This document shows positions 951 through 12,346 of a stretch of 20,745 nt of DNA, in pieces. The notes beneath the pieces were generated by a model. It had not been told where the DNA came from and did not search any database. It worked only from the letters and a program-made list of their open reading frames with translations. The DNA is from a virus. Within the stretch, counting starts at the first letter, position 1. Every line of letters begins with the position of its first letter. The stretch is from the IMG/VR virus record IMGVR_UViG_3300047564_006201, positions 1 through 20,745 of that record; one strand, 5' to 3'. The position numbers and the translations under genes are program-made.

Positions 951-1555
951 GTGATTATGATGCCTATAAGATGTATTGTGCTCTGAAGAGGCACTTTAAT
1001 TCAGAGTCATATGATTATTTTAAGTACCAAGGTAAGGTTCGAACAACTCACAAAGCTTTTGAAAAGCGGAACGACAAATATTTCTTTGCAAAGTTAGCAA
1101 AGCACAAGGATATAGAAGGATTCCTAGTTGCAAACCTTGCATACGGAGATCTTTGGGTGGGTGATCTGGTTAACGAGCAGGCAGCAGAGAAACAGTATAG
1201 GGAATGGTTGAAACGCAAGCAATCGCTGTCATACGTGTTCAAAAACGATCTAGAAAATATCGGATCAATGAAAGACGAGATACGTGTTGTTGAAGGTCAA
1301 CATCCAAGGCTGTTCAGAAAGTATTTGTCAAAAGAAATATGTATCGAGACATTGATTGTGATGGATGGTCTTTGGAAAGGTCTGATGTTCATGTACTGGA
1401 ACGAGATGCTGAAAGACCCAGTATGGAAAAGTGAGTATATCAAGCTGATAAAGTTTTTGCCTTTTGTGAAGTATGATCGAGAAAAATATATGGAACTACT
1501 TGATCAGCATCAAAAACAATTCAACAAGCATATAGAAGAACATGAAACTAACTGA
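947..1555 (+). CDS. 59: gp59 replicative helicase loader
   Basis: The 202-aa protein (T4 gp59 is 217 aa) matches the helicase assembly factor that loads gp41 helicase onto gp32-covered forked DNA. The N-terminal stretch DAYKMYCALKRHF (4-16), then YDYFKYQGKVR (22-32) and KRNDKYFFAKLAKH (40-53), is the hallmark pattern of the family. The C-terminal half is helix-rich and basic. The ATG at 947 overlaps the gp33 stop (ATGA), giving translational coupling. Its partner gp32 lies two genes downstream; in T4 the two are adjacent, so the intervening oxygenase gene is an insertion relative to T4. Confidence 0.9.
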   Translation: MSDYDAYKMYCALKRHFNSESYDYFKYQGKVRTTHKAFEKRNDKYFFAKLAKHKDIEGFLVANLAYGDLWVGDLVNEQAAEKQYREWLKRKQSLSYVFKNDLENIGSMKDEIRVVEGQHPRLFRKYLSKEICIETLIVMDGLWKGLMFMYWNEMLKDPVWKSEYIKLIKFLPFVKYDREKYMELLDQHQKQFNKHIEEHETN

Positions 1556-2147
1556 TTTGATAAAATGTTATCCGAACATTGTTCCCGATCATTACTGTGA
1601 TTATTTTGTAGAGTTTTATGAGAACCATAAAGACCTGGTCACGAACTATCATCACGGAATGTATGAGCAAGCTCCTGACTTTGCAGAGCTAATATTTACC
1701 ACCGCATCTGTTAAAGAAGAGCACGTCAGATTCAACAATCACGTGGCTTCTTTGCTTAATAAAGCAGCAACACTATATAAGAGTGATTTCCCACTTTCAA
1801 ATAATTTTTTCCCCAAATCATATTCTTTTGAATTTCTCAGAATAAAGAAATATGAAAACAATGGAAGCGATGAGTTTAAAATTCATTGTGATGCAGATAG
1901 CATCTGTAGTAGTGCTAGATTTATGAACATCTTTTGTTATCTTAATGACGTTGAAGAGGGTGGCGAAACCGACTTTCCCGATTTCGGTGTTTCTTTCAAA
2001 CCCAAAAAAGGATCAGTTGTAATTTTTCCCCCATACTGGTTCTTTCCACATCAGGGTAACAAACCAATTTCTAATCCCAAGTACCTGTTAGCAACAAACT
2101 TGCACCATTCAAACTGTCACGATTGTAACGGTTGTTTGGTAAAATAA
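1542..2147 (+). CDS. 2-oxoglutarate/Fe(II)-dependent oxygenase (prolyl-4-hydroxylase-like)
   Basis: The 201-aa protein has the double-stranded beta-helix signature of 2OG-Fe(II) oxygenases. H115-x-D117 (within KIHCDAD) and a distal H170 (FFPHQGNKP) would hold iron. K180 in SNPKYLLATNLHH fits the basic residue that binds the 2-oxoglutarate carboxylate. Between them lie MNIFCYLND and EEGGETDFPDFG, typical of the P4H-like subfamily, which is common in marine T4-like phages. The substrate is unknown. The C-terminus holds a cysteine cluster, NCHDCNGC (191-198), that could bind metal. The gene overlaps gp59 by 14 bases and has only a weak ribosome site, so coupling to gp59 translation is likely. 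It sits inside a replication cluster, but nothing in the sequence shows a role in replication. Confidence 0.85.
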   Translation: MKLTDLIKCYPNIVPDHYCDYFVEFYENHKDLVTNYHHGMYEQAPDFAELIFTTASVKEEHVRFNNHVASLLNKAATLYKSDFPLSNNFFPKSYSFEFLRIKKYENNGSDEFKIHCDADSICSSARFMNIFCYLNDVEEGGETDFPDFGVSFKPKKGSVVIFPPYWFFPHQGNKPISNPKYLLATNLHHSNCHDCNGCLVK

Positions 2148-3212: not shown

Positions 3213-5732
3213 TCATCCCAGTCTTGTGACCCCTGCTAGGGAAGAGTGGTCGTAGTTGTTCCTAGAATACTCGGGATAAACACTTCTTGATCCACCAGCC
3301 ATTGAAGTTGATGTATTGTTATTGACTATATTATAATTATTTACTGGAGCAGAAGCTAGTCCAGGTACATCCCAGTTCGTTGCCTGATTGACCTCTCCAA
3401 GTATATTCAGCGTGTCGAGTAGTTCTGACATTAACTCTTTCGGGTCGTTAGCCTTTCTTTGCTTCTCCATAATATCTTTAATTGATTGTTTGCGTTCCTC
3501 GTAGTAATCTTTGACTTTTTCTGTGATTTTATCTGTAACGCTTTCACCTTTTATAGTCATAAGTTCTAACTCTTCAGGACCCACAGGTTCCATCAATCTT
3601 TTATAAGCTTCATTATATCTATCAATAGCTAGCTTCCGTCTCTTTTCTTCCGACAGCTTTCTTTCGCTATCAGACACTGCAGATGGATTTTTGAAATATT
3701 CAGCAAGCTCTCTGGAAGCTGTATCACTCTTACTGAAAATTTGCCAATGTTTTCTTACAAACTCTTGGAGCCCCTTCATATCGCCTTTACTAATCAGCTC
3801 TTTGATCTTACCATTTGAGAACTCATCAAACATCATTTGCTGAACTTCGGGGCTGAACGGTTTGTCTAGTAGGTCGGGGTGTCTATTATAAAATTCCTGA
3901 ACATTCTCTCGAGTAAATTGAAAAGCTCCTACTGCACCGGTTCCTTTGTTTGGACCAGCTCCAACCTTACCCATAGTAGCAGTTATCTGCTTACTTTGAT
4001 AATCCAATAACTGCTTACCAGTCATTTGAGATACACCGGTAATTCCTTCTGGGAACGGAACATACTTGGGCATAATCTTTCCATCTTTTATGGAACCACC
4101 ATAAGGAATGTCGTATGATCCACCAGCCTCATGTTTAGATATGAGATTCGCTAATCCAGTTTTGAAAGATCCCTTATCCTCATCACTCATATTCTCGCTG
4201 ATGATTTCGTTCATAGCTTGATCATATTTGTCACGAGATATCCTCACCATCTTACCCTTTTCATCTGGGTAGTAATAGAAGTCAGCAGTTTCTATGAGAA
4301 TATATCTTTGTTCAATTGCAAAATTTCTTTCTGAGGGACTGAGGCTAGCCCACAATCTATTGAATTCCTTTAAAATCTCAAGATCCTGCCCCTTTTCTTC
4401 CCGTTCCTTTTGTTTTTGTCTATCTTTGTAGGCTTCTACAATCTTAGCATGGATCGCAAGTTTTTCTATCTCTGCTGCGGATCGCTGTAACGATGCTTGA
4501 ATTTCTTGTGGGCTTGCTGCATTCGGATCAGCTTGTGGTCCTATCTTTGAAAGCTCTTTGAACTGCTCCGCCTTCTTAAGGTTTTCCTCCGTTGGCTTAG
4601 GGGCTCGGTTTCCCATAGCAACCAGCCCCTTGGACATATCAAGATTTTCTCCGTCTGAAAGAGCTACTGCTTGATTAATTTCTTCTTCACTGATACCATA
4701 CTCTTTAAACATCTCGTACACTTGATATATTGTGAATCCAGTCGCTAGCAACCAACCAACATAAGGAACAAGGACTGCTGCTCGAGCACCAAAACCACGT
4801 GCGGCCGCTGCTTCTATTGCAGCAGTCCTTGCAGCTTGTCTAGCAGATGCTTTCACAGCTGGAGTGATAGCTCCTGGTCTACCGTTTCTATACTTGTCTA
4901 TACCATATGCAGTAGCCGCTGCAGTTCCAGCACCGGTAAGAGCGCTTCCTAGTAGACTGCCTCCAGTTGCAGCTCCCATTGATTTGATCATACTGTTAAC
5001 GAGGAGTCTGTTGGCCAGTAGGGTAGTGACAATACTAGCTGCAACTGGAATCATATATCTAAGGAGAACACCACCTGCCATTATCTTTAAGGTATCTTTC
5101 ATAACCTTAGCAGGATCTGCTTTGACGAGATCTATGATACCATCAAAAAAAGGTTTTACAATATCAAACCCGGCCGCAATCATATCAACAAGAGCACCAA
5201 ACTTCTTGATCACAGTATTAACAATTGGAAATTTTATATCAAGACTTTTGTATGCATCTTTGATTTGTTGAACTGTTCGCAATATACCAGCTGTTATATT
5301 GTCAAAAGTATTCTCAACAAAGGAAAACAGCTTGTTGAATAAACTTCCGAATCCTTTACTTAGTCTGTTTTTAGTGTCTCCAGACATATTATCCCAAAGC
5401 ATAACCTTAGCAAGCAATCCTGCTATTGCAAGAGGAAGAACTTTTCCTAACCCGGAAACTATGGAGTTAGACACACTTGACACTCCTGAAGCTGCAGCAC
5501 CAACAGCGGCACCACCGGTTTTTGCTACGCTGGATACAAATCCGGTGATAGTTCTACCAAGGGATGTTATACTGTTGACCATCTTTTCGTTGGTACGTAT
5601 AATGTTTCGTTGATAGCTAAGCATTGCTGATTGATATCTGATATCAGCGTTAACTTGCTTCAGCTGCTGCATACGCAGCGCACGCATTTCTTTTATCTGT
5701 TCAATGTAGCTTCTAGTATCAGCTGTTGCCAT
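3213..5732 (-). CDS. Tape-measure-like tail protein with embedded lysozyme/transglycosylase-like domain
   Basis: The 839-aa protein is the last gene of the minus-strand tail block. Residues 1-50 are a charged helix, likely coiled coil. Residues 55-110 and 210-335 are hydrophobic and Gly/Ala-rich, as in tape measure proteins. Residues 405-460 are charged helix. Residues about 520-690 look like a peptidoglycan-degrading domain: catalytic-type E535 in SKHEAGGSYD, then GTGAVGAFQF (597-606), PFSPEVQQMMFDE (625-637) and GDMKGLQEFVRKHW (650-663). These resemble the E..G..YD / GAxGxFQ pattern of lambda-endolysin-like lysozymes. The C-terminus is Asn/Ser-rich. Its place right after gp26/gp51 and before convergent DNA is where a T4 gp29-type or other tape measure would be expected. 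The start at 5732 overlaps the gp51-like frame by 14 bases, with GAGG about 12 nt upstream. Enzyme-like domain likely; tape measure role is inference. Confidence 0.7.
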   Translation of the reverse strand: MATADTRSYIEQIKEMRALRMQQLKQVNADIRYQSAMLSYQRNIIRTNEKMVNSITSLGRTITGFVSSVAKTGGAAVGAAASGVSSVSNSIVSGLGKVLPLAIAGLLAKVMLWDNMSGDTKNRLSKGFGSLFNKLFSFVENTFDNITAGILRTVQQIKDAYKSLDIKFPIVNTVIKKFGALVDMIAAGFDIVKPFFDGIIDLVKADPAKVMKDTLKIMAGGVLLRYMIPVAASIVTTLLANRLLVNSMIKSMGAATGGSLLGSALTGAGTAAATAYGIDKYRNGRPGAITPAVKASARQAARTAAIEAAAARGFGARAAVLVPYVGWLLATGFTIYQVYEMFKEYGISEEEINQAVALSDGENLDMSKGLVAMGNRAPKPTEENLKKAEQFKELSKIGPQADPNAASPQEIQASLQRSAAEIEKLAIHAKIVEAYKDRQKQKEREEKGQDLEILKEFNRLWASLSPSERNFAIEQRYILIETADFYYYPDEKGKMVRISRDKYDQAMNEIISENMSDEDKGSFKTGLANLISKHEAGGSYDIPYGGSIKDGKIMPKYVPFPEGITGVSQMTGKQLLDYQSKQITATMGKVGAGPNKGTGAVGAFQFTRENVQEFYNRHPDLLDKPFSPEVQQMMFDEFSNGKIKELISKGDMKGLQEFVRKHWQIFSKSDTASRELAEYFKNPSAVSDSERKLSEEKRRKLAIDRYNEAYKRLMEPVGPEELELMTIKGESVTDKITEKVKDYYEERKQSIKDIMEKQRKANDPKELMSELLDTLNILGEVNQATNWDVPGLASAPVNNYNIVNNNTSTSMAGGSRSVYPEYSRNNYDHSSLAGVTRLG

Positions 5733-5904
5733 TCTTTGCTATATCCTCTTGACTCTTTATATGATGCTTTAATAACTCTAGAAATATGTCTCTTTCAAAC
5801 GGAATTAAGTTTTCAACCTCAGTTATTGAATAATGATGATGCTGAGCCAAAATGAAAACCACATTATAGTAGTTTTCTAAGTTGTTATGACTCAGCCCAA
5901 GGTG
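5719..5904 (-). CDS. 51: gp51-like tail assembly frame, probably made as a gp26 fusion by -1 frameshift
   Basis: This frame encodes 61 residues after the slip point, with its stop at 5721-5719. The core YSITEVENLIPFERDIFLEL resembles the small gp51 hub-assembly proteins I recall from marine T4-like phages; in T4, gene 51 directly follows 26. The frame is -1 relative to gp26 and has no ATG. GTG at 5862 and TTG at 5850 are the only candidate starts and neither has a Shine-Dalgarno sequence. The frame is open back to a TAA at 5925-5923, so it overlaps the gp26 end by 31 nt, and that overlap holds the heptamer T TTT TTC. A frameshift there would give a 294-aa gp26-gp51 fusion (233 + 61). The layout matches lambda G/GT tail chaperones before the tape measure gene. 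Coding nature is fairly sure; the expression route is inference. Confidence 0.65.
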   Translation of the reverse strand, partial: HLGLSHNNLENYYNVVFILAQHHHYSITEVENLIPFERDIFLELLKHHIKSQEDIAKNGNS

Positions 5905-6602
5905 AAAAAATCTTCTATAGACTTAAACTCTACTTCTCTTTCCGTCCCCTTTTCATTTGTATAACTTATTTTATGATATAATTTAGGCATTGTATCAAAA
6001 AACTTTTCGAAACTTTTAAGAACAGAAGTGGGCAAATCTTCGATGAATGATTCTATTTCCTCTGCTTTAGAGTCCTTAAAGTATTGAATGTTTTCACCAT
6101 CATAAAATTGTTCCATACACCCACCAATCATAAAAAATAAGATATCCGTAACTTCTTCCCTAGCAAGCACTTCACCCATCAACTTTGCGCTCGGATACCT
6201 CATAACTATCCCGGAAGTATCAGATAATTTAATTACTCTACTATGCTCTGGATTCTCCACAACTTTTATGTCATCAACGTTTATTTTAAAGGTGTATGTT
6301 TTCTCATCATCAGGGTCGCTGTATGAAATATCAATTGTCTCTCCGACAGATTTGGCCCTCAGTTGTAAGAACAGGTATTCTAAATCAAAGGATGCTAGTG
6401 TTTGCGGATCAACAGTCCCATCCACATCACAGTTGACAATAACTTGTTGGACAACACTCATTACATCTTGCTGCTCACCACTTTGTTTAGCCATCAACAT
6501 CAACTTCTCTTCTTTAACAAGGAATGGTCTAAATCTAACTTTTTGTTTTGTGGACGGTATAATCAACTCAAAGGTTGGGTGCATCAATTTTGGCAAAGCC
6601 AT
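5892..6602 (-). CDS. 26: gp26-like baseplate hub assembly protein
   Basis: The 236-aa protein matches the T4 baseplate hub family that includes gp26 (T4 gp26 is 208 aa). Typical stretches are MALPKLMHPTFELIIPSTKQ at the start, FRPFLVKEEKLMLMAKQSGE (24-43) and FDLEYLFLQLRAKSVGE (73-89). The C-terminal part is helical and rich in acidic and aromatic residues. AGGAG stands about 6 nt before the ATG. gp26 takes part in forming the central hub of the tail. Position before a tape-measure-like gene, and the apparent frameshift at its 3' end, suggest that it acts as the G part of a G/GT-type tape measure chaperone. The family call is strong; the chaperone role is inference. Confidence 0.85.
   Translation of the reverse strand: MALPKLMHPTFELIIPSTKQKVRFRPFLVKEEKLMLMAKQSGEQQDVMSVVQQVIVNCDVDGTVDPQTLASFDLEYLFLQLRAKSVGETIDISYSDPDDEKTYTFKINVDDIKVVENPEHSRVIKLSDTSGIVMRYPSAKLMGEVLAREEVTDILFFMIGGCMEQFYDGENIQYFKDSKAEEIESFIEDLPTSVLKSFEKFFDTMPKLYHKISYTNEKGTEREVEFKSIEDFFTLG
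5904..5910 (-). promoter_or_regulatory. Slippery heptamer T TTT TTC for -1 frameshifting in gp26
   Basis: Read on the minus strand in the gp26 frame, the end of the gene is GAT TTT TTC ACC TTG GGC TGA. The heptamer fits X XXY YYZ exactly, four codons before the stop. The -1 frame is closed at 5925-5923 upstream and open to 5719 downstream, so a slip has to occur in the 31-nt window 5892-5922, where this heptamer lies. No strong downstream hairpin or pseudoknot was recognised. Confidence 0.6.
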
Positions 6603-6630
6603 AATAATCTCCTAATAACTATAAAAAAAT

Positions 6631-7410
6631 TTAAAAAAATCCACCTGATGACTCGTCTGCTTTTTTACTGTCAAATACTTCTTGATTCCAGTTGTAGTAT
6701 GCAAATGTTACACTAAACGTTGAGTAACTATCACCGGAGCTTGAAGAAAGAGACATCTCACTTAGAGCTATTGGGTACGCTTTGAATAACGTAACAGTTC
6801 TTATTGGTTCCAGTTTGTAGTCTGGATTTGATAACCCACCCAATATTGATCCAATGAAAGGAGCTCCAAGAGCAGCTGATGCAGCAGAAAGAGCAACTCC
6901 TTCTAACCCAGACCCACCAAACTTACCAGGTGCTCCTCTGTATGAAGTTATTTTAATCTCGGAAACATAAGAGGATTGGTATGAAAGAACAAATGTAGGG
7001 TTGGCAGTGTCTTGTTCTACTCCATCTACTGTTGCTGGAACGACTATGCCGGCAGCTGGTCGCTGATTGAATGCAGGATTGATCTGTCTTATCCACAAAT
7101 AGAATAGCTGGTACAGTAGGCCACTACCATCAGCAATGTATGTTATCGTACTTGTGTTGTTGAATTCAACACCTATAGGCATAAGCTGATTAGGGCCAAG
7201 ACCATACCTTTTTGTTGGAGCCGTTGAAATCTGCACTCCCGGAAGAGTGGCATTCTGAGCAAAAAGACGCAACTGATCACCGAGACCTCCCATGTATGCA
7301 GCTATTTGTTGGGGCATATTCTTTGGTATGGAAATTATTGTATCGAAGAGATTGGGTCTCTCGACGTCATATAACTGTATTTGTGATTTAAACTTGTTAA
7401 TGTCTAGCAT
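6631..7410 (-). CDS. 54: gp54-like baseplate tail-tube initiator
   Basis: The 259-aa protein has the layout of the T4 tail tube fold family (gp19, gp48, gp54). It opens MLDINKFKSQIQLYDVERPN, similar in style to T4 gp54. It has a central FNNTSTITYIADGSGLLYQL and ends with the tube-fold strand pair FKAYPIALSEMSLS (about 209-222) and STFSVTFAYYNWNQE. In T4, gp54 sits on gp48 on top of the baseplate and primes gp19 tube polymerisation (T4 gp54 is 320 aa). A Gly/Ala-rich insertion lies near residues 165-190. Its start overlaps the upstream stop as TAATG. The partner gp48 is encoded on the other strand at 8399. It could instead be another tube-fold member, but gp48 is separately present. Confidence 0.72.
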   Translation of the reverse strand: MLDINKFKSQIQLYDVERPNLFDTIISIPKNMPQQIAAYMGGLGDQLRLFAQNATLPGVQISTAPTKRYGLGPNQLMPIGVEFNNTSTITYIADGSGLLYQLFYLWIRQINPAFNQRPAAGIVVPATVDGVEQDTANPTFVLSYQSSYVSEIKITSYRGAPGKFGGSGLEGVALSAASAALGAPFIGSILGGLSNPDYKLEPIRTVTLFKAYPIALSEMSLSSSSGDSYSTFSVTFAYYNWNQEVFDSKKADESSGGFF

Positions 7411-7952
7411 TATCTTTTCTTATAAACGAAATCGTCTAGTGGAAGCAGTATTGCTTTTTGCCACTCATCCGGTCTTATGTAAAAAAACCTGGACCTAACA
7501 TGACTATTTAGATACTTCTTGATACACTCTCTTGATGATTTGAGCTTTGACATTCCTTTTAACAATCTATAGTTCAAGTTAATTTTCATCTGGTCAGTGA
7601 AAGTCTTATCAGAAGATAAAGACATTAAGTTGTCCAAAAGAACTGCTCTTTGGGTGTATGAGAGGTAGTGGAAGTTTATCCCTAAAAACCCGTTTTCTAC
7701 ATGCTCAAACGGGAATATGAGGGGGAACCTATCGTAGAGTGGTAGAGTAGCCTTATGCTTAGGGTCATAGTGGAAAAGATACATCTTTCCGATTGTAAGA
7801 GTTTTTGTGAGCCTATCATCACCCTTACTGATAATATTAATTGTTGACTTTGAGGAAAGATCCCTGTAAGTGGTATCAAACCAAGTTCGAGCGTCAGCCA
7901 CCATTCCTTTTGAAATAGCTTGGTTGAGCATCTGTTGGTATGTCTGGGCCAT
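7410..7952 (-). CDS. Conserved-looking T4-type phage protein of unknown role (180 aa)
   Basis: I do not recognise this product with confidence. It is mixed alpha/beta, basic and aromatic-rich, with no signal peptide or membrane segment. Notable stretches are IGKMYLFHYDPKHKATLPLY (54-73), FPLIFPFEHVENGFLGINFH (76-95) and HVRSRFFYIRPDEWQKAILL (151-170), which look like strongly constrained packing motifs. It sits between gp4 and gp54 with TAATG overlaps on both sides, so it is co-translated with head- and tail-completion proteins. In T4, the neighbours of gene 4 include gp2 (DNA end protector) and gp3 (tail terminator). A connector or genome-end role is a reasonable guess but unproven; the length fits T4 gp3 (176 aa) better than gp2 (274 aa). 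Confidence 0.8.
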   Translation of the reverse strand: MAQTYQQMLNQAISKGMVADARTWFDTTYRDLSSKSTINIISKGDDRLTKTLTIGKMYLFHYDPKHKATLPLYDRFPLIFPFEHVENGFLGINFHYLSYTQRAVLLDNLMSLSSDKTFTDQMKINLNYRLLKGMSKLKSSRECIKKYLNSHVRSRFFYIRPDEWQKAILLPLDDFVYKKR

Positions 7953-8389
7953 TATTTGATACCTAATTCATTTTCGGTCAGTATTTGAAATTTCCAGTGT
8001 CGCTCCTCGCAAAACTTCTGGGCATATTTCCACTTAGAGCTATTTATCCCCCATGTTTTGACCTCTTCTAAATACCTCTTTGTAACTCTTGATTTGGTTT
8101 TTGGAGGCTGAGTCTGAGCTTTGGGTTTTATTTCGACCACTACCGTTTCCACTGTGCCGTCTCTGTTTCTTTTTTTAACCCAGAAATCAGGGAAGTATCT
8201 GTGTACTTTGTTGTCAATGGGTGATAAATATGGAATAGCAAATTCTTCGCTTGCCCACTCTATCACGTCTGGATGGGTGTCAAGGTAACCCATAAATTTA
8301 CACTCCCAAAGAGAGCGATAAATAATATTAGAGGGATTACCCTTATACTTCGAGGGATTCTTGGGTTTAAATACACCTTTGTAACTCAT
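7952..8389 (-). CDS. 4: gp4 head completion protein (PD-(D/E)XK nuclease-like)
   Basis: The 145-aa protein closely follows T4 gp4 (150 aa), needed to finish the DNA-filled head so that tails can attach. It opens MSYKGVFKPKNPSKYKGNPS and contains IIYRSLWECKFMGYLDTHP (22-40). Its nuclease-like signature is P67-D68 in RYFPDFWV plus E86-I87-K88 in VVVEIKPK, with E29 as a possible further ligand. This is the PD-(D/E)XK arrangement also seen in TnsA-type endonucleases. ATG 8389 is chosen because the upstream in-frame TTG (8422) adds an unrelated hydrophobic stretch. No Shine-Dalgarno sequence precedes either start. Its ATG lies 9 bp from the divergent gp48 ATG, so its promoter must lie inside gp48; I found no convincing one. 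Confidence 0.9.
   Translation of the reverse strand: MSYKGVFKPKNPSKYKGNPSNIIYRSLWECKFMGYLDTHPDVIEWASEEFAIPYLSPIDNKVHRYFPDFWVKKRNRDGTVETVVVEIKPKAQTQPPKTKSRVTKRYLEEVKTWGINSSKWKYAQKFCEERHWKFQILTENELGIK
8317..8324 (+). promoter_or_regulatory. Candidate late promoter for the baseplate operon (GATAAATA)
   Basis: GATAAATA on the plus strand, one base from the T4 late octamer and followed by ATATTA, lies 75 bp before the gp48 start, inside the antiparallel gp4 gene. The same GATAAATAAT string precedes gp32. A promoter for the long plus-strand operon has to lie here because only 9 bp separate the divergent starts. A second GATAAATA at 8223-8230 is an alternative. Such words are common by chance in this DNA, so support is positional only. 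Confidence 0.4.
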
Positions 8390-8398
8390 AGGAATAAA

Positions 8399-9397
8399 AT
8401 GAATGTAGAATATGTAAGACAAGCAAAACTAGATGAGGCAGCTAAAAATGACGGATTAGATGTCCCTCACTCTAGCATTCCTGAAAAAAAAGTTGAAGAG
8501 AAAAGAACTAACCTTCTTTCATCAATATCACCTCTAGCTTATCCACCCGATCTCACTGATGAATTCTACATAGAGTTTAATGCCTTCAAAGCAAATACAA
8601 CGAGACCTGATGAAACAAAGCGAACGTTCAGTTTTGAAAAGTCTGTATATTTACCATTTCCTCAAACTGTAACCGATACATATAATTCCAGGTATAGTGA
8701 AGAATCTCTGATGGCTGGTGGTGATTTTTTAAGGAATTCAATAAATGAGGTTATGACGTCCGATGGGACTAAAAGTGTAAAAAACTTATTACCTGGATCA
8801 GGCGTTGCTGATCGTGCTGGTAAGGTACTTGCATCTGCTTTGGAGAAGGGTTTGAAAAATCCTATGGATACAGCAGCTGGTGCTGCTGTCTATGGGCTAC
8901 AGGGTATTGGTGGACCGATAGGAGCTGCTGCAAAAGCAGCGATACCCGTCACAACAAATCCATATCCTGTTCTTATCTTTCAAGGACCTGGTGGTTTTAA
9001 AAGTTTTGGATTTTCTTGGACCTTTTTTCCGGAAGATCCAAAAGAATCTGGTATCATTAGAAAGATTGTTGGTTATTTCAGGAGAGAGATGCTACCTGAA
9101 CGAATAGATAAAATTCCTTCTATATTAAAATATCCAGCAATCTTTGAGATTGTAATAAATCCAGAAATTAAATTATTCAAAAGGTGTGTGATCACATCTG
9201 TAGATGTCAATTATACGCCTGTAGGTCCAGCTTTCGTAAAGGAGTTTCCTAAGATAAGTTCGGATTTCATTGAGCCAGCTGCAGTAACGTTAACAATCAA
9301 TTTTCAAGAAGTTGAAATGTGGCTTGCCAATGACTTTTATAGTGAAGAGAGTAAAGACTTTAATTATGTTGACGCTAAAAAACGTACTTACGCATAA
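8399..9397 (+). CDS. 48: gp48-like baseplate tail-tube cap protein
   Basis: The 332-aa protein (T4 gp48 is 364 aa) is the likely platform between baseplate hub and tail tube. A charged, disordered N-terminus (about 1-45) precedes a beta-strand region starting DLTDEFYIEFNAF. A Gly/Ala-rich stretch follows (about 145-185), then GGFKSFGFSWTFFPEDPKES and a C-terminal strand pair, FKRCVITSVDVNYTPVG and AVTLTINFQEVEMW. The last is the tube-fold ending shared with gp19 and gp54. The ATG at 8399 has AGGA six bases upstream (8390-8393) and gives the expected length; the open frame extends further upstream but crosses the gp4 start. It is the first gene of the plus-strand baseplate operon, followed by gp53 with a 5-bp gap. 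Confidence 0.78.
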   Translation: MNVEYVRQAKLDEAAKNDGLDVPHSSIPEKKVEEKRTNLLSSISPLAYPPDLTDEFYIEFNAFKANTTRPDETKRTFSFEKSVYLPFPQTVTDTYNSRYSEESLMAGGDFLRNSINEVMTSDGTKSVKNLLPGSGVADRAGKVLASALEKGLKNPMDTAAGAAVYGLQGIGGPIGAAAKAAIPVTTNPYPVLIFQGPGGFKSFGFSWTFFPEDPKESGIIRKIVGYFRREMLPERIDKIPSILKYPAIFEIVINPEIKLFKRCVITSVDVNYTPVGPAFVKEFPKISSDFIEPAAVTLTINFQEVEMWLANDFYSEESKDFNYVDAKKRTYA

Positions 9398-10266: not shown

Positions 10267-11561
10267 TTTTAAAACCAAGTCAGTGTGATATTAAAGAAAT
10301 ATCAATTACTTCTAACAGTAAAACAACAACATACGACATAGATAGTGGTATTCTAAACTTCATTCAGTCTGTTGACATCTACGAGTCAATTTACACTCCG
10401 TACATTACTGCAGATGTGTATATGGTTGATGGTGCTAACTTGAAAGAAAGGCTCAATCTTTCTGGTGGGGAGATATTTAAAATAAAGTTTTTAGGTTATG
10501 GCAACGATCAACCTCTTCAATACACTCTTAAACTTGGAGAGATCAATGGCGTTATGACAGCGGAAAATTTGCGCAGTAAAACGTATGCGTTGAGAATGTA
10601 TAGTAGCGAGTATATACTTAACTCAGCAAAAACAGTATCAAAAAGTTATAGTACTTCTACAAAAAATATCATAGAAGATATACTAAAAGGAATATTAGAA
10701 ACAACAAACAAAATTTATGTAGAGCCTACAAAAGATCTACCAGTGATTATTATTCCATATCTTAATCCACTAACCGCAATTTCGTTTATTCGTCAGCGTT
10801 CCGTATCCGCTAAAGATGTATCCACACCTATACTTTTTTTTGAAAACCAGTACGGATATTTTTTTACGACAGTTGAAGCTTTGTTTAACAATGGTGGTGC
10901 AGGATCCTCTGAAGTACAAACATTTTTTCAACGCGAGGCAATATCTACAAACGTAAAAGGACCTGAGGGATCAGTGTCAGATATTAATGCACATAGGCTT
11001 TTTGCTAACTATACTGTAAAAACTCCAGTAGATATCATAAACTTGTTGGATGAAGGTGGACTCAATAGTGTAATTTCAGATTTTGATTTAAACACAAAAA
11101 CATACAGACGAAGAGTATACTCTAACACACCAAAGAATACCTCTTTTATTGATTTCATGGGTGGAGCAAACTCATTGCTTACTGGTAAAATTAATGAAGA
11201 GTATTCAAAGTTCATAGGTAAAGGGTTTTTGATTCCTTTTGCAAAATATAAAGATACTCCAAACCCAACTGTAAATTTTTTGTATGATTCCCTTGCTGAG
11301 AAATACAGCTACACAAATTTACTCACACAACAAAAAATATACATTGACATTCCTGGAAATACGAAAATTGTTGCTGGTAGTGTTATTAATCTTGAAGTTC
11401 CAAGACACCAGGCACTATTTAATGGAAAAGAAAAAAATGAAGTTGAAAGCGGTAAGTACATCGTGTCTTCAGTTAGACATTCCGTAAATGTTCTTGTTGA
11501 TTCAAAGTACGACACGCATCTTGAGCTGATAAGGTATGGTAGAGGAGAGTTGAGCACATGA
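10263..11561 (+). CDS. 27: gp27-like baseplate hub protein
   Basis: The 432-aa protein (T4 gp27 is 391 aa) is placed as the trimeric hub that carries the gp5 spike, mainly because it directly precedes gp5 with an ATGA overlap. Its N-terminus has the usual hub-protein start: DIKEISITS, then DIDSGILNFIQSVDIYESIY (26-45) and TPYITADVYMVDGANL. Later segments include IIIPYLNPLTAISFIRQRSV and FFENQYGYFFTTVEALF, as in gp27/VgrG N-terminal domains, and a C-terminal SGKYIVSSVRHSV with LELIRYGRG, typical of these hubs. The protein is beta-rich without signal peptide or membrane segment. Direct likeness to T4 gp27 is weak by eye; position and fold style carry the call. Confidence 0.72.
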   Translation: MILKPSQCDIKEISITSNSKTTTYDIDSGILNFIQSVDIYESIYTPYITADVYMVDGANLKERLNLSGGEIFKIKFLGYGNDQPLQYTLKLGEINGVMTAENLRSKTYALRMYSSEYILNSAKTVSKSYSTSTKNIIEDILKGILETTNKIYVEPTKDLPVIIIPYLNPLTAISFIRQRSVSAKDVSTPILFFENQYGYFFTTVEALFNNGGAGSSEVQTFFQREAISTNVKGPEGSVSDINAHRLFANYTVKTPVDIINLLDEGGLNSVISDFDLNTKTYRRRVYSNTPKNTSFIDFMGGANSLLTGKINEEYSKFIGKGFLIPFAKYKDTPNPTVNFLYDSLAEKYSYTNLLTQQKIYIDIPGNTKIVAGSVINLEVPRHQALFNGKEKNEVESGKYIVSSVRHSVNVLVDSKYDTHLELIRYGRGELST

Positions 11562-12346
11562 CAACAGCTTATCTTGGTGAAGAGGGTTTCAGATGGTTTT
11601 TTGGTAAGGTTGAAGATAGAGAAGATCCTAAAAAAATTGGTCGTATTCGTGTGAGGATATACAATGTACATCCATTTACAAACGACGGGAGTCCTGATTT
11701 AGTTAATGTGCCAACAGAGCATCTTCCTTGGGCCACTCCTATTTCTTCAATAATGAGTGCTGGCCTGATTGATGAGAGAATTAAAGATGGTATTGGGGTA
11801 AGTTCATTAGGATTGATGGTTGGTTCTACGGTCTTTGGTTTTTTTGCTGATGGAAATGATTGCCAAATCCCTATAATACTTGGATCACTTGCAGGACTTT
11901 CAGGTAGCGACGAAAAAAGTGAGCTTCCCAAGTCTTCAATAGGAGAAAACTCAGCTGGGGCTCTAAAAAACAGTAAAAGAATACTAGCCCAATCACCTTT
12001 TCCTGGAGAACCGGAATCTCCCTACGCAGCTAAATATCCCTATAACAAAACAATACGTACAGAGTCTGGTCATCTTATCGAAATAGACGATACTCCTTCA
12101 AAAGAGCGTATTCACCTCATGCATAAAAATGGTACGTATGTTGAGATGGATGTGAACGGTGATGTTGTCATGAAAACAACAAGGAACAAGTACGATATAA
12201 CAACAAGCAACAACAATGTTTACATTGGCGGTGATGCTAACATTAAGGTCAACGGCAATCTTAACATGCTAGTTGATGGTACGTATACTGTAGAATCCAA
12301 AGGAGATATGCTTTTCAAAGCCCCTAGAATAGATTTTAATCCATAA
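11558..12346 (+). CDS. 5: gp5-like baseplate spike protein without lysozyme domain
   Basis: The 262-aa protein has the two outer parts of T4 gp5 but not the middle. Residues 1-115 form the OB-fold: FRWFFGKVEDREDPKKIGRI (11-30), RVRIYNVHP, LPWATPI, then STVFGFFADGNDCQIPIILG. Residues about 150-262 form the start of the triple-stranded beta-helix: KTIRTESGHLIEIDDTPSKE, then short repeats such as NGTYVEMDVNGDVVMKT, NNNVYIGGDANIKVNG and TYTVESKGDMLFKAPRIDFN. T4 gp5 is 575 aa with a lysozyme domain between these parts; here only a short Ser/Gly-rich linker is present (about 116-150). A lysozyme-like domain occurs instead in the tape-measure-like protein on the other strand. The start overlaps the hub gene (ATGA), the end overlaps PAAR (TAATG). 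Confidence 0.87.
   Translation: MTTAYLGEEGFRWFFGKVEDREDPKKIGRIRVRIYNVHPFTNDGSPDLVNVPTEHLPWATPISSIMSAGLIDERIKDGIGVSSLGLMVGSTVFGFFADGNDCQIPIILGSLAGLSGSDEKSELPKSSIGENSAGALKNSKRILAQSPFPGEPESPYAAKYPYNKTIRTESGHLIEIDDTPSKERIHLMHKNGTYVEMDVNGDVVMKTTRNKYDITTSNNNVYIGGDANIKVNGNLNMLVDGTYTVESKGDMLFKAPRIDFNP

Follow-up and report, generated by a model that had tools for sequence, protein, structure and literature searches.

A T4-like tail assembly chaperone gene predicted to be decoded by programmed -1 frameshifting, with lineage-specific candidate RNA stimulators

The gp26-like gene of an uncultured T4-like phage ends at a slippery sequence that leads into a second, overlapping reading frame. We analyzed 20,745 nucleotides (nt) of DNA (hereafter the window; positions 1-20,745 of IMG/VR record IMGVR_UViG_3300047564_006201), read the minus strand of 5500-6700, and listed all open reading frames (ORFs) there. 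From upstream to downstream, the genes are tail tube, 26, 51, and probable tape measure, with two overlapping ORFs between the tube and tape genes (Table 1). The 3' end of gp26 reads GAT TTT TTC ACC TTG GGC TGA and includes the in-frame heptamer T TTT TTC. The -1 frame is blocked by TAA at 5925-5923, and the slip window is therefore 5922-5892 (31 nt). The predicted fusion is 294 amino acids (aa; 233 + 61), and the end of the -1 ORF overlaps the start of the 839-aa ORF that follows. A first-pass annotation, made from the sequence alone, had given these positions (gp26 end, heptamer, TAA, slip window, and 61 codons to 5719) and the length of the fusion, all correctly. Based on the comparisons described below, we conclude that this is very probably a tail assembly chaperone (TAC) gene from which programmed -1 ribosomal frameshifting yields gp26 and a gp26-gp51 fusion, a pair of the G/GT type.

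The slip site and its open -1 frame are far beyond chance: the site was set apart from other slippery sequences in the window and was conserved among relatives. Slippery heptamers are frequent in DNA this AT-rich, and 42 in-frame ones were counted across 18 genes of the window. The one in gp26 was alone in having a -1 frame that continues beyond the stop codon of the gene. The first-pass annotation had suggested aligning gp26 3' ends from relatives. We took gp26 relatives from viral contigs and annotated phages and surveyed 101 distinct related loci, a set that leaves out Vibrio phages K364 and D531 (no heptamer) and Rhizobium phage RHph_I1_18 (T TTT TTA AAC). The heptamer and the -1 ORF recurred, with an in-frame site at the same place in all 101 loci, either T TTT TTT (51) or T TTT TTC (50). 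The first Phe codon of the heptamer was TTT, and the preceding codon ended in T, in 101 of 101. At other conserved Phe columns of the gp26 alignment TTT was used in just 38-84% of sequences (50% at the second heptamer Phe), indicating that the site is kept at the codon level, beyond a mere need for Phe-Phe. Because the sequences are related, the 101 loci are not independent, and the Phe columns compared within these genes give the fairer control. The slip site with a -1 extension was found in marine phages, cyanophages, and Sinorhizobium, Aeromonas, Vibrio (KVP40), and Stenotrophomonas phages, all T4-like; KVP40 has GAT TTT TTC GTA TAA and a matching -1 ORF.

Two loci had unusual slip sites. 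That of RHph_I1_18 (L104:4690-4880) contains two overlapping in-frame heptamers, and the overlap between the frames is much longer. At a second locus (L016:2753-2762), a longer run of T with A after it also makes two overlapping heptamers, and there was no clear downstream structure.

The -1 frame encodes a conserved domain. The extension was 56-70 aa long in all complete cases, whereas the +1 frame stayed open for a median of just 4 codons. Within the group of loci to which the window belongs, the ratio of nonsynonymous to synonymous change (pN/pS) in the -1 frame was 0.20, with pN below pS in 91 of 91 pairs; two control frames had no such signal. The -1 ORF is under purifying selection. Its product matched phrog_634, "baseplate hub assembly catalyst" (gp51; E = 1e-21). 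It matched the final 50 columns of phrog_150 as well, which is explained by T4 gp51 consisting of a gp26-like domain and then a gp51 domain. The predicted structure of the extension was mostly helical, at low confidence (predicted local distance difference test [pLDDT] 70). A decayed or chance open frame, with gp26 acting alone, might be suspected from the shortness of the -1 ORF and its lack of a start of its own, and is strongly contradicted by the selection test, the length in every complete case, and the match to a named family; we consider this explanation to have almost no chance of being correct.

The RNA downstream of the heptamer is structured in the window's group, defined as loci in which the gp26 stop lies 9 nt after the heptamer (n = 42). 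The 60 nt 3' of the heptamer had a folding z-score of -6.3 in the window, and a mean of -2.8 over the 101 loci, relative to shuffled sequence. Because the region is coding, folding was tested again relative to synonymous recoding of the -1 frame: the mean z-score for the window's group was -4.9, with 39 of 42 loci below -2 and the window at -5.3. The main element is a long-range helix of 9 base pairs (bp) including one G-U pair (GCUGAGUCA with UGGCUCAGC). These positions were paired in 93% of cells, compared to 20-35% when the arms were slid, a level reached in none of 500 shuffles, and two-sided changes were found at three pairs. Of the nine pairs, 8.4 were observed to form compared to 5.0 under synonymous recoding. 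When all possible six-pair helices were scanned without bias, this helix ranked first (0.74 observed, 0.004 expected). We conclude that the RNA helix 3' of the heptamer is kept beyond the needs of the protein. A hairpin within its loop was weakly enriched across the group. No pseudoknot stood out in the unbiased helix scan of the window's group, and an Rfam scan of the region gave subthreshold chance matches only. A clear RNA structure was not present in every locus.

The second group of loci had a different set of RNA signals. In this group (group II; mostly cyanophages, n = 51), the gp26 stop lies 3 nt after the heptamer. An 11-bp local hairpin ranked first in the helix scan, with 71% of cells paired and 19 cells with two-sided changes. 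No consensus structure was obtained with RNAalifold for the whole cyanophage set, some members of which lack the hairpin, and the hairpin was therefore counted by name. A Shine-Dalgarno-like GGAGG was present approximately 10 nt upstream of the slip site in 21 of 51 loci, compared to 3.7 expected under synonymous recoding. Bacterial -1 frameshifting is known to be stimulated by Shine-Dalgarno elements on the 5' side of the slip site and by structures on the 3' side (PMC7618472). In addition, group II had a second, long-range pairing (columns 36-41 and 102-107, numbered from the heptamer; 0.45 observed, 0.11 expected), which could be an alternative structure or form a pseudoknot with the hairpin.

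These signals bear on whether the ribosome or RNA polymerase would do the slipping. Every surveyed locus has a run of at least six T at the slip site, on which polymerase slippage could generate mixed mRNAs, some encoding the fusion. However, half of the loci have just six T followed by C, and the helix beginning 7 nt downstream and the cyanophage GGAGG are features of ribosomal frameshifting. We therefore regard polymerase slippage as highly improbable.

Several observations weigh against a frameshifted chaperone gene. The gp26 AlphaFold model (pLDDT 87) had no significant match to solved chaperones in a fold search against the PDB. The HK97 chaperone 2ob9 ranked 22nd and was not significant (E = 2.8, probability 0.21, TM-score [TMt] 0.37). 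A sequence search of gp26 against solved structures likewise gave no meaningful match, and the viral fold matches of gp26 were mostly baseplate hub subunits and hub assembly proteins. In 32 of the 51 group II loci there is an ATG at codon 4 of the -1 frame. Vibrio phages K364 and D531 (L021:3697-3905, L108:4570-4770) have no heptamer, and their gp51-like frame starts at TAATG.

The ATG and TAATG starts raise the alternative that gp51 is translated as a short protein of its own, through termination and reinitiation after the gp26 stop, with no frameshifting. Free gp51 would be possible by this route in the group II loci with an ATG at codon 4, and gp51 is annotated as a separate protein in P-SSM3, S-SSM5, and P-HM1. 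In the window, however, the -1 stretch has no ATG, in agreement with the first-pass annotation, and its first GTG is 15 codons in, past the conserved GLSHN..NYY segment. Similarly, the first 15 codons are free of ATG in 31 of the 42 loci in the window's group. Reinitiation also gives no role to the heptamer and the RNA helix, yet both are conserved. We consider it very unlikely, if slightly less so than slippage by the polymerase. K364 and D531, with TAATG and no heptamer, indicate that some relatives use another route, and these two have probably switched to reinitiation in place of frameshifting. Their neighboring genes differ too.

Cyanophage records (L018, L019, L110, L111) annotate gp51 as a separate gene that starts after the gp26 stop. 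Judging from the comparisons made here, these entries are probably truncated and the real coding region starts at the slip site.

T4 itself encodes the short and long forms in two genes. T4 gp51 covers columns 13-280 of phrog_150 and T4 gp26 covers just 14-235, and the two proteins align weakly to each other (E = 2e-6, in a single comparison). Because T4 gp51 has a gp26-like domain and a gp51 domain in frame, T4 has two paralogous genes for the two forms; as judged by these alignments, gp26 and gp51 are the short and long versions of one protein. Whole-record searches found two copies in T4 and one each in KVP40, phiAS5, P-HM1, and Vibrio phage K364, and most other T4-like phages examined had one gene with a slip site. 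Six phages with two genes were examined (T4, an Acinetobacter phage, Aeromonas phage 31, a Krischvirus, Klebsiella phage Mineola, and RB43), and none has an in-frame T TTT TT[T/C] at the 3' end of gp26. Of these, T4 and Mineola retain Phe-Phe, encoded by TTC TTT, and the others have lost it. The first-pass annotation had stated that gene 51 follows gene 26 in T4; the two are indeed adjacent, but they are divergently transcribed.

Taken together, the two groups suggest a broader proposal, about which we are evenly divided. There would be two lineage-specific stimulators, one a helix of 9-12 bp joining bases approximately 45 nt apart and the other the cyanophage GGAGG with the 11-bp hairpin, both selected beyond the protein code and tuning the ratio of short to long form to the design of the tail, with the slip site gone in phages that have two paralogues.

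We infer the occurrence of slipping, its rate, and the function of the products from sequence comparisons, as follows. Ribosomes translating gp26 would pause at the RNA helix when the Phe-Phe codons of the slip site are being read. Most would continue to the gp26 TGA and make the 236-aa short form, and a minority, aided by the long-range helix, would slip back one base at T TTT TTC and make the 294-aa fusion. By analogy to lambda gpG and gpGT, the short and long forms may coat the tape measure protein encoded next, recruit tail tube subunits, and then leave. The lambda proteins gpG and gpGT both bind the tape measure, with tail tube subunits recruited through the T part (PMC5009743). T4 gp26 and gp51 are listed as hub assembly chaperones, and gp51 is essential and absent from the final particle (PMC3004832). 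Because the gene order is the same as in lambda and the T4 proteins are described as hub assembly chaperones, gp26 and gp51 of the window likely act on the tape measure as lambda G and GT do. The G/GT-type pair proposed in the first-pass annotation is thus strongly supported by the near-universal slip site, the conserved -1 ORF, the conserved RNA structure, the gene order, and the domain makeup of T4 gp51.

Frameshifting in T4-like chaperone genes has been reported before. T4 was still set down as the exception to frameshifting of the G/GT type in a 2016 review (PMC5009743). Vladimirov, Gautam and Davidson (Virology 2022, 566:9-15), as cited in two later papers (PMC10885494, PMC12846349), identified the chaperones of T4-like phages, a short TAC-N and a long TAC-NC. 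Of the citing papers, that on PRFect notes that in some T4-like phages one short copy and one long, fused copy take the place of frameshifting (PMC10885494), and that on phage Adele refers to poly-T slip signals in the TAC-N genes of T4-like phages (PMC12846349). Going by these citations, the frameshifted chaperone of T4-like phages is correct and was already reported in 2022, and the window is a new member from an uncultured lineage. A partial literature search, in which the 2022 paper was represented by the papers citing it, found no description of the two RNA stimulators, and the pair of lineage-specific stimulators is possibly new.

The survey supports frameshifting as the common way for T4-like phages to make the chaperone pair, across approximately 100 mostly uncultured phages. 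The alignments also account for the long-puzzling gp26 and gp51 of T4 as two halves of a chaperone system encoded by paralogous genes, and they suggest that many "gp51" genes in databases are truncated fragments. The RNA signals are concrete, testable candidate frameshift elements in viruses that are abundant in marine and fresh water.

Table 1. Coordinates of the predicted features at the gp26-gp51 locus (positions in the window; MFE, minimum free energy).
Feature	Position	Strand	Evidence or remarks
gp26-like gene, short form (G / TAC-N), 236 aa	5892-6602	-	PF12322 T4_baseplate, E 1e-54; phrog_150 baseplate hub, E 6e-61
Slippery heptamer T_TTT_TTC	5904-5910	-	In frame, X_XXY_YYZ phase
-1 frame extension (gp51 / TAC-C domain), 61 sense codons + TGA 5721-5719	5719-5904	-	phrog_634; phrog_150 C-terminus; pN/pS
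5' arm of long-range RNA helix, from 7 nt after heptamer	5888-5896	-	3 more outer pairs possible at 5899-5897
3' arm of long-range RNA helix	5841-5849	-	Outer partners 5839-5837
Inner hairpin in helix loop, arms 5877-5869 + 5862-5854	5854-5877	-	MFE fold; window-type lineage only
Probable tail tape measure protein, 839 aa, ATG 5732-5730	3213-5732	-	phrog_4200 tape measure, E 1e-7 (modest); phrog_58, E 2e-4
Tail tube protein gene, upstream of gp26	6631-7410	-	phrog_45 tail tube, E 1e-28

Other genes in the window had features of their own. In the probable tape measure protein, a segment around KHEAGG...GAVGAFQFT resembles a lytic transglycosylase motif by eye, with no Pfam match. The ORFs for a head closure protein (7952-8422, minus strand) and a tail tube cap protein (8273-9397, plus strand) overlap on opposite strands; the true starts are probably further inside, because the families are matched from residues 12 and 59 onward. 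A gp5-like hub protein (11558-12346, plus strand) is just 262 aa, its matches cover parts of hub/tail-lysozyme profiles, and it seems to have no lysozyme domain. A cell wall hydrolase (PF07486) is encoded separately at 98-730. A 2OG-Fe(II) oxygenase gene (1542-2147, plus strand) lies between genes for a gp59-like helicase loader and a gp32-like protein.

The predicted system resembles three known ones and differs from each. As with lambda gpG and gpGT, a short protein and its predicted -1 frameshift fusion are encoded between the tail tube and tape measure genes. In contrast to lambda, the slip site is T_TTT_TTC rather than G_GGA_AAG, the protein belongs to family PF12322 in a contractile-tail phage, and there is a long-range stem. 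T4 gp26 (the short form) and gp51 (a gp26-like domain plus the gp51 domain) are of the same protein family, but T4 and its close relatives use two paralogous genes with no slip site, whereas the window has one gene with a slip site. Finally, the cyanophage branch is similar to dnaX-type signals in its arrangement of a Shine-Dalgarno-like GGAGG, a heptamer, and a downstream hairpin, whereas the window's branch has no strong upstream Shine-Dalgarno-like element and has the long-range helix instead.

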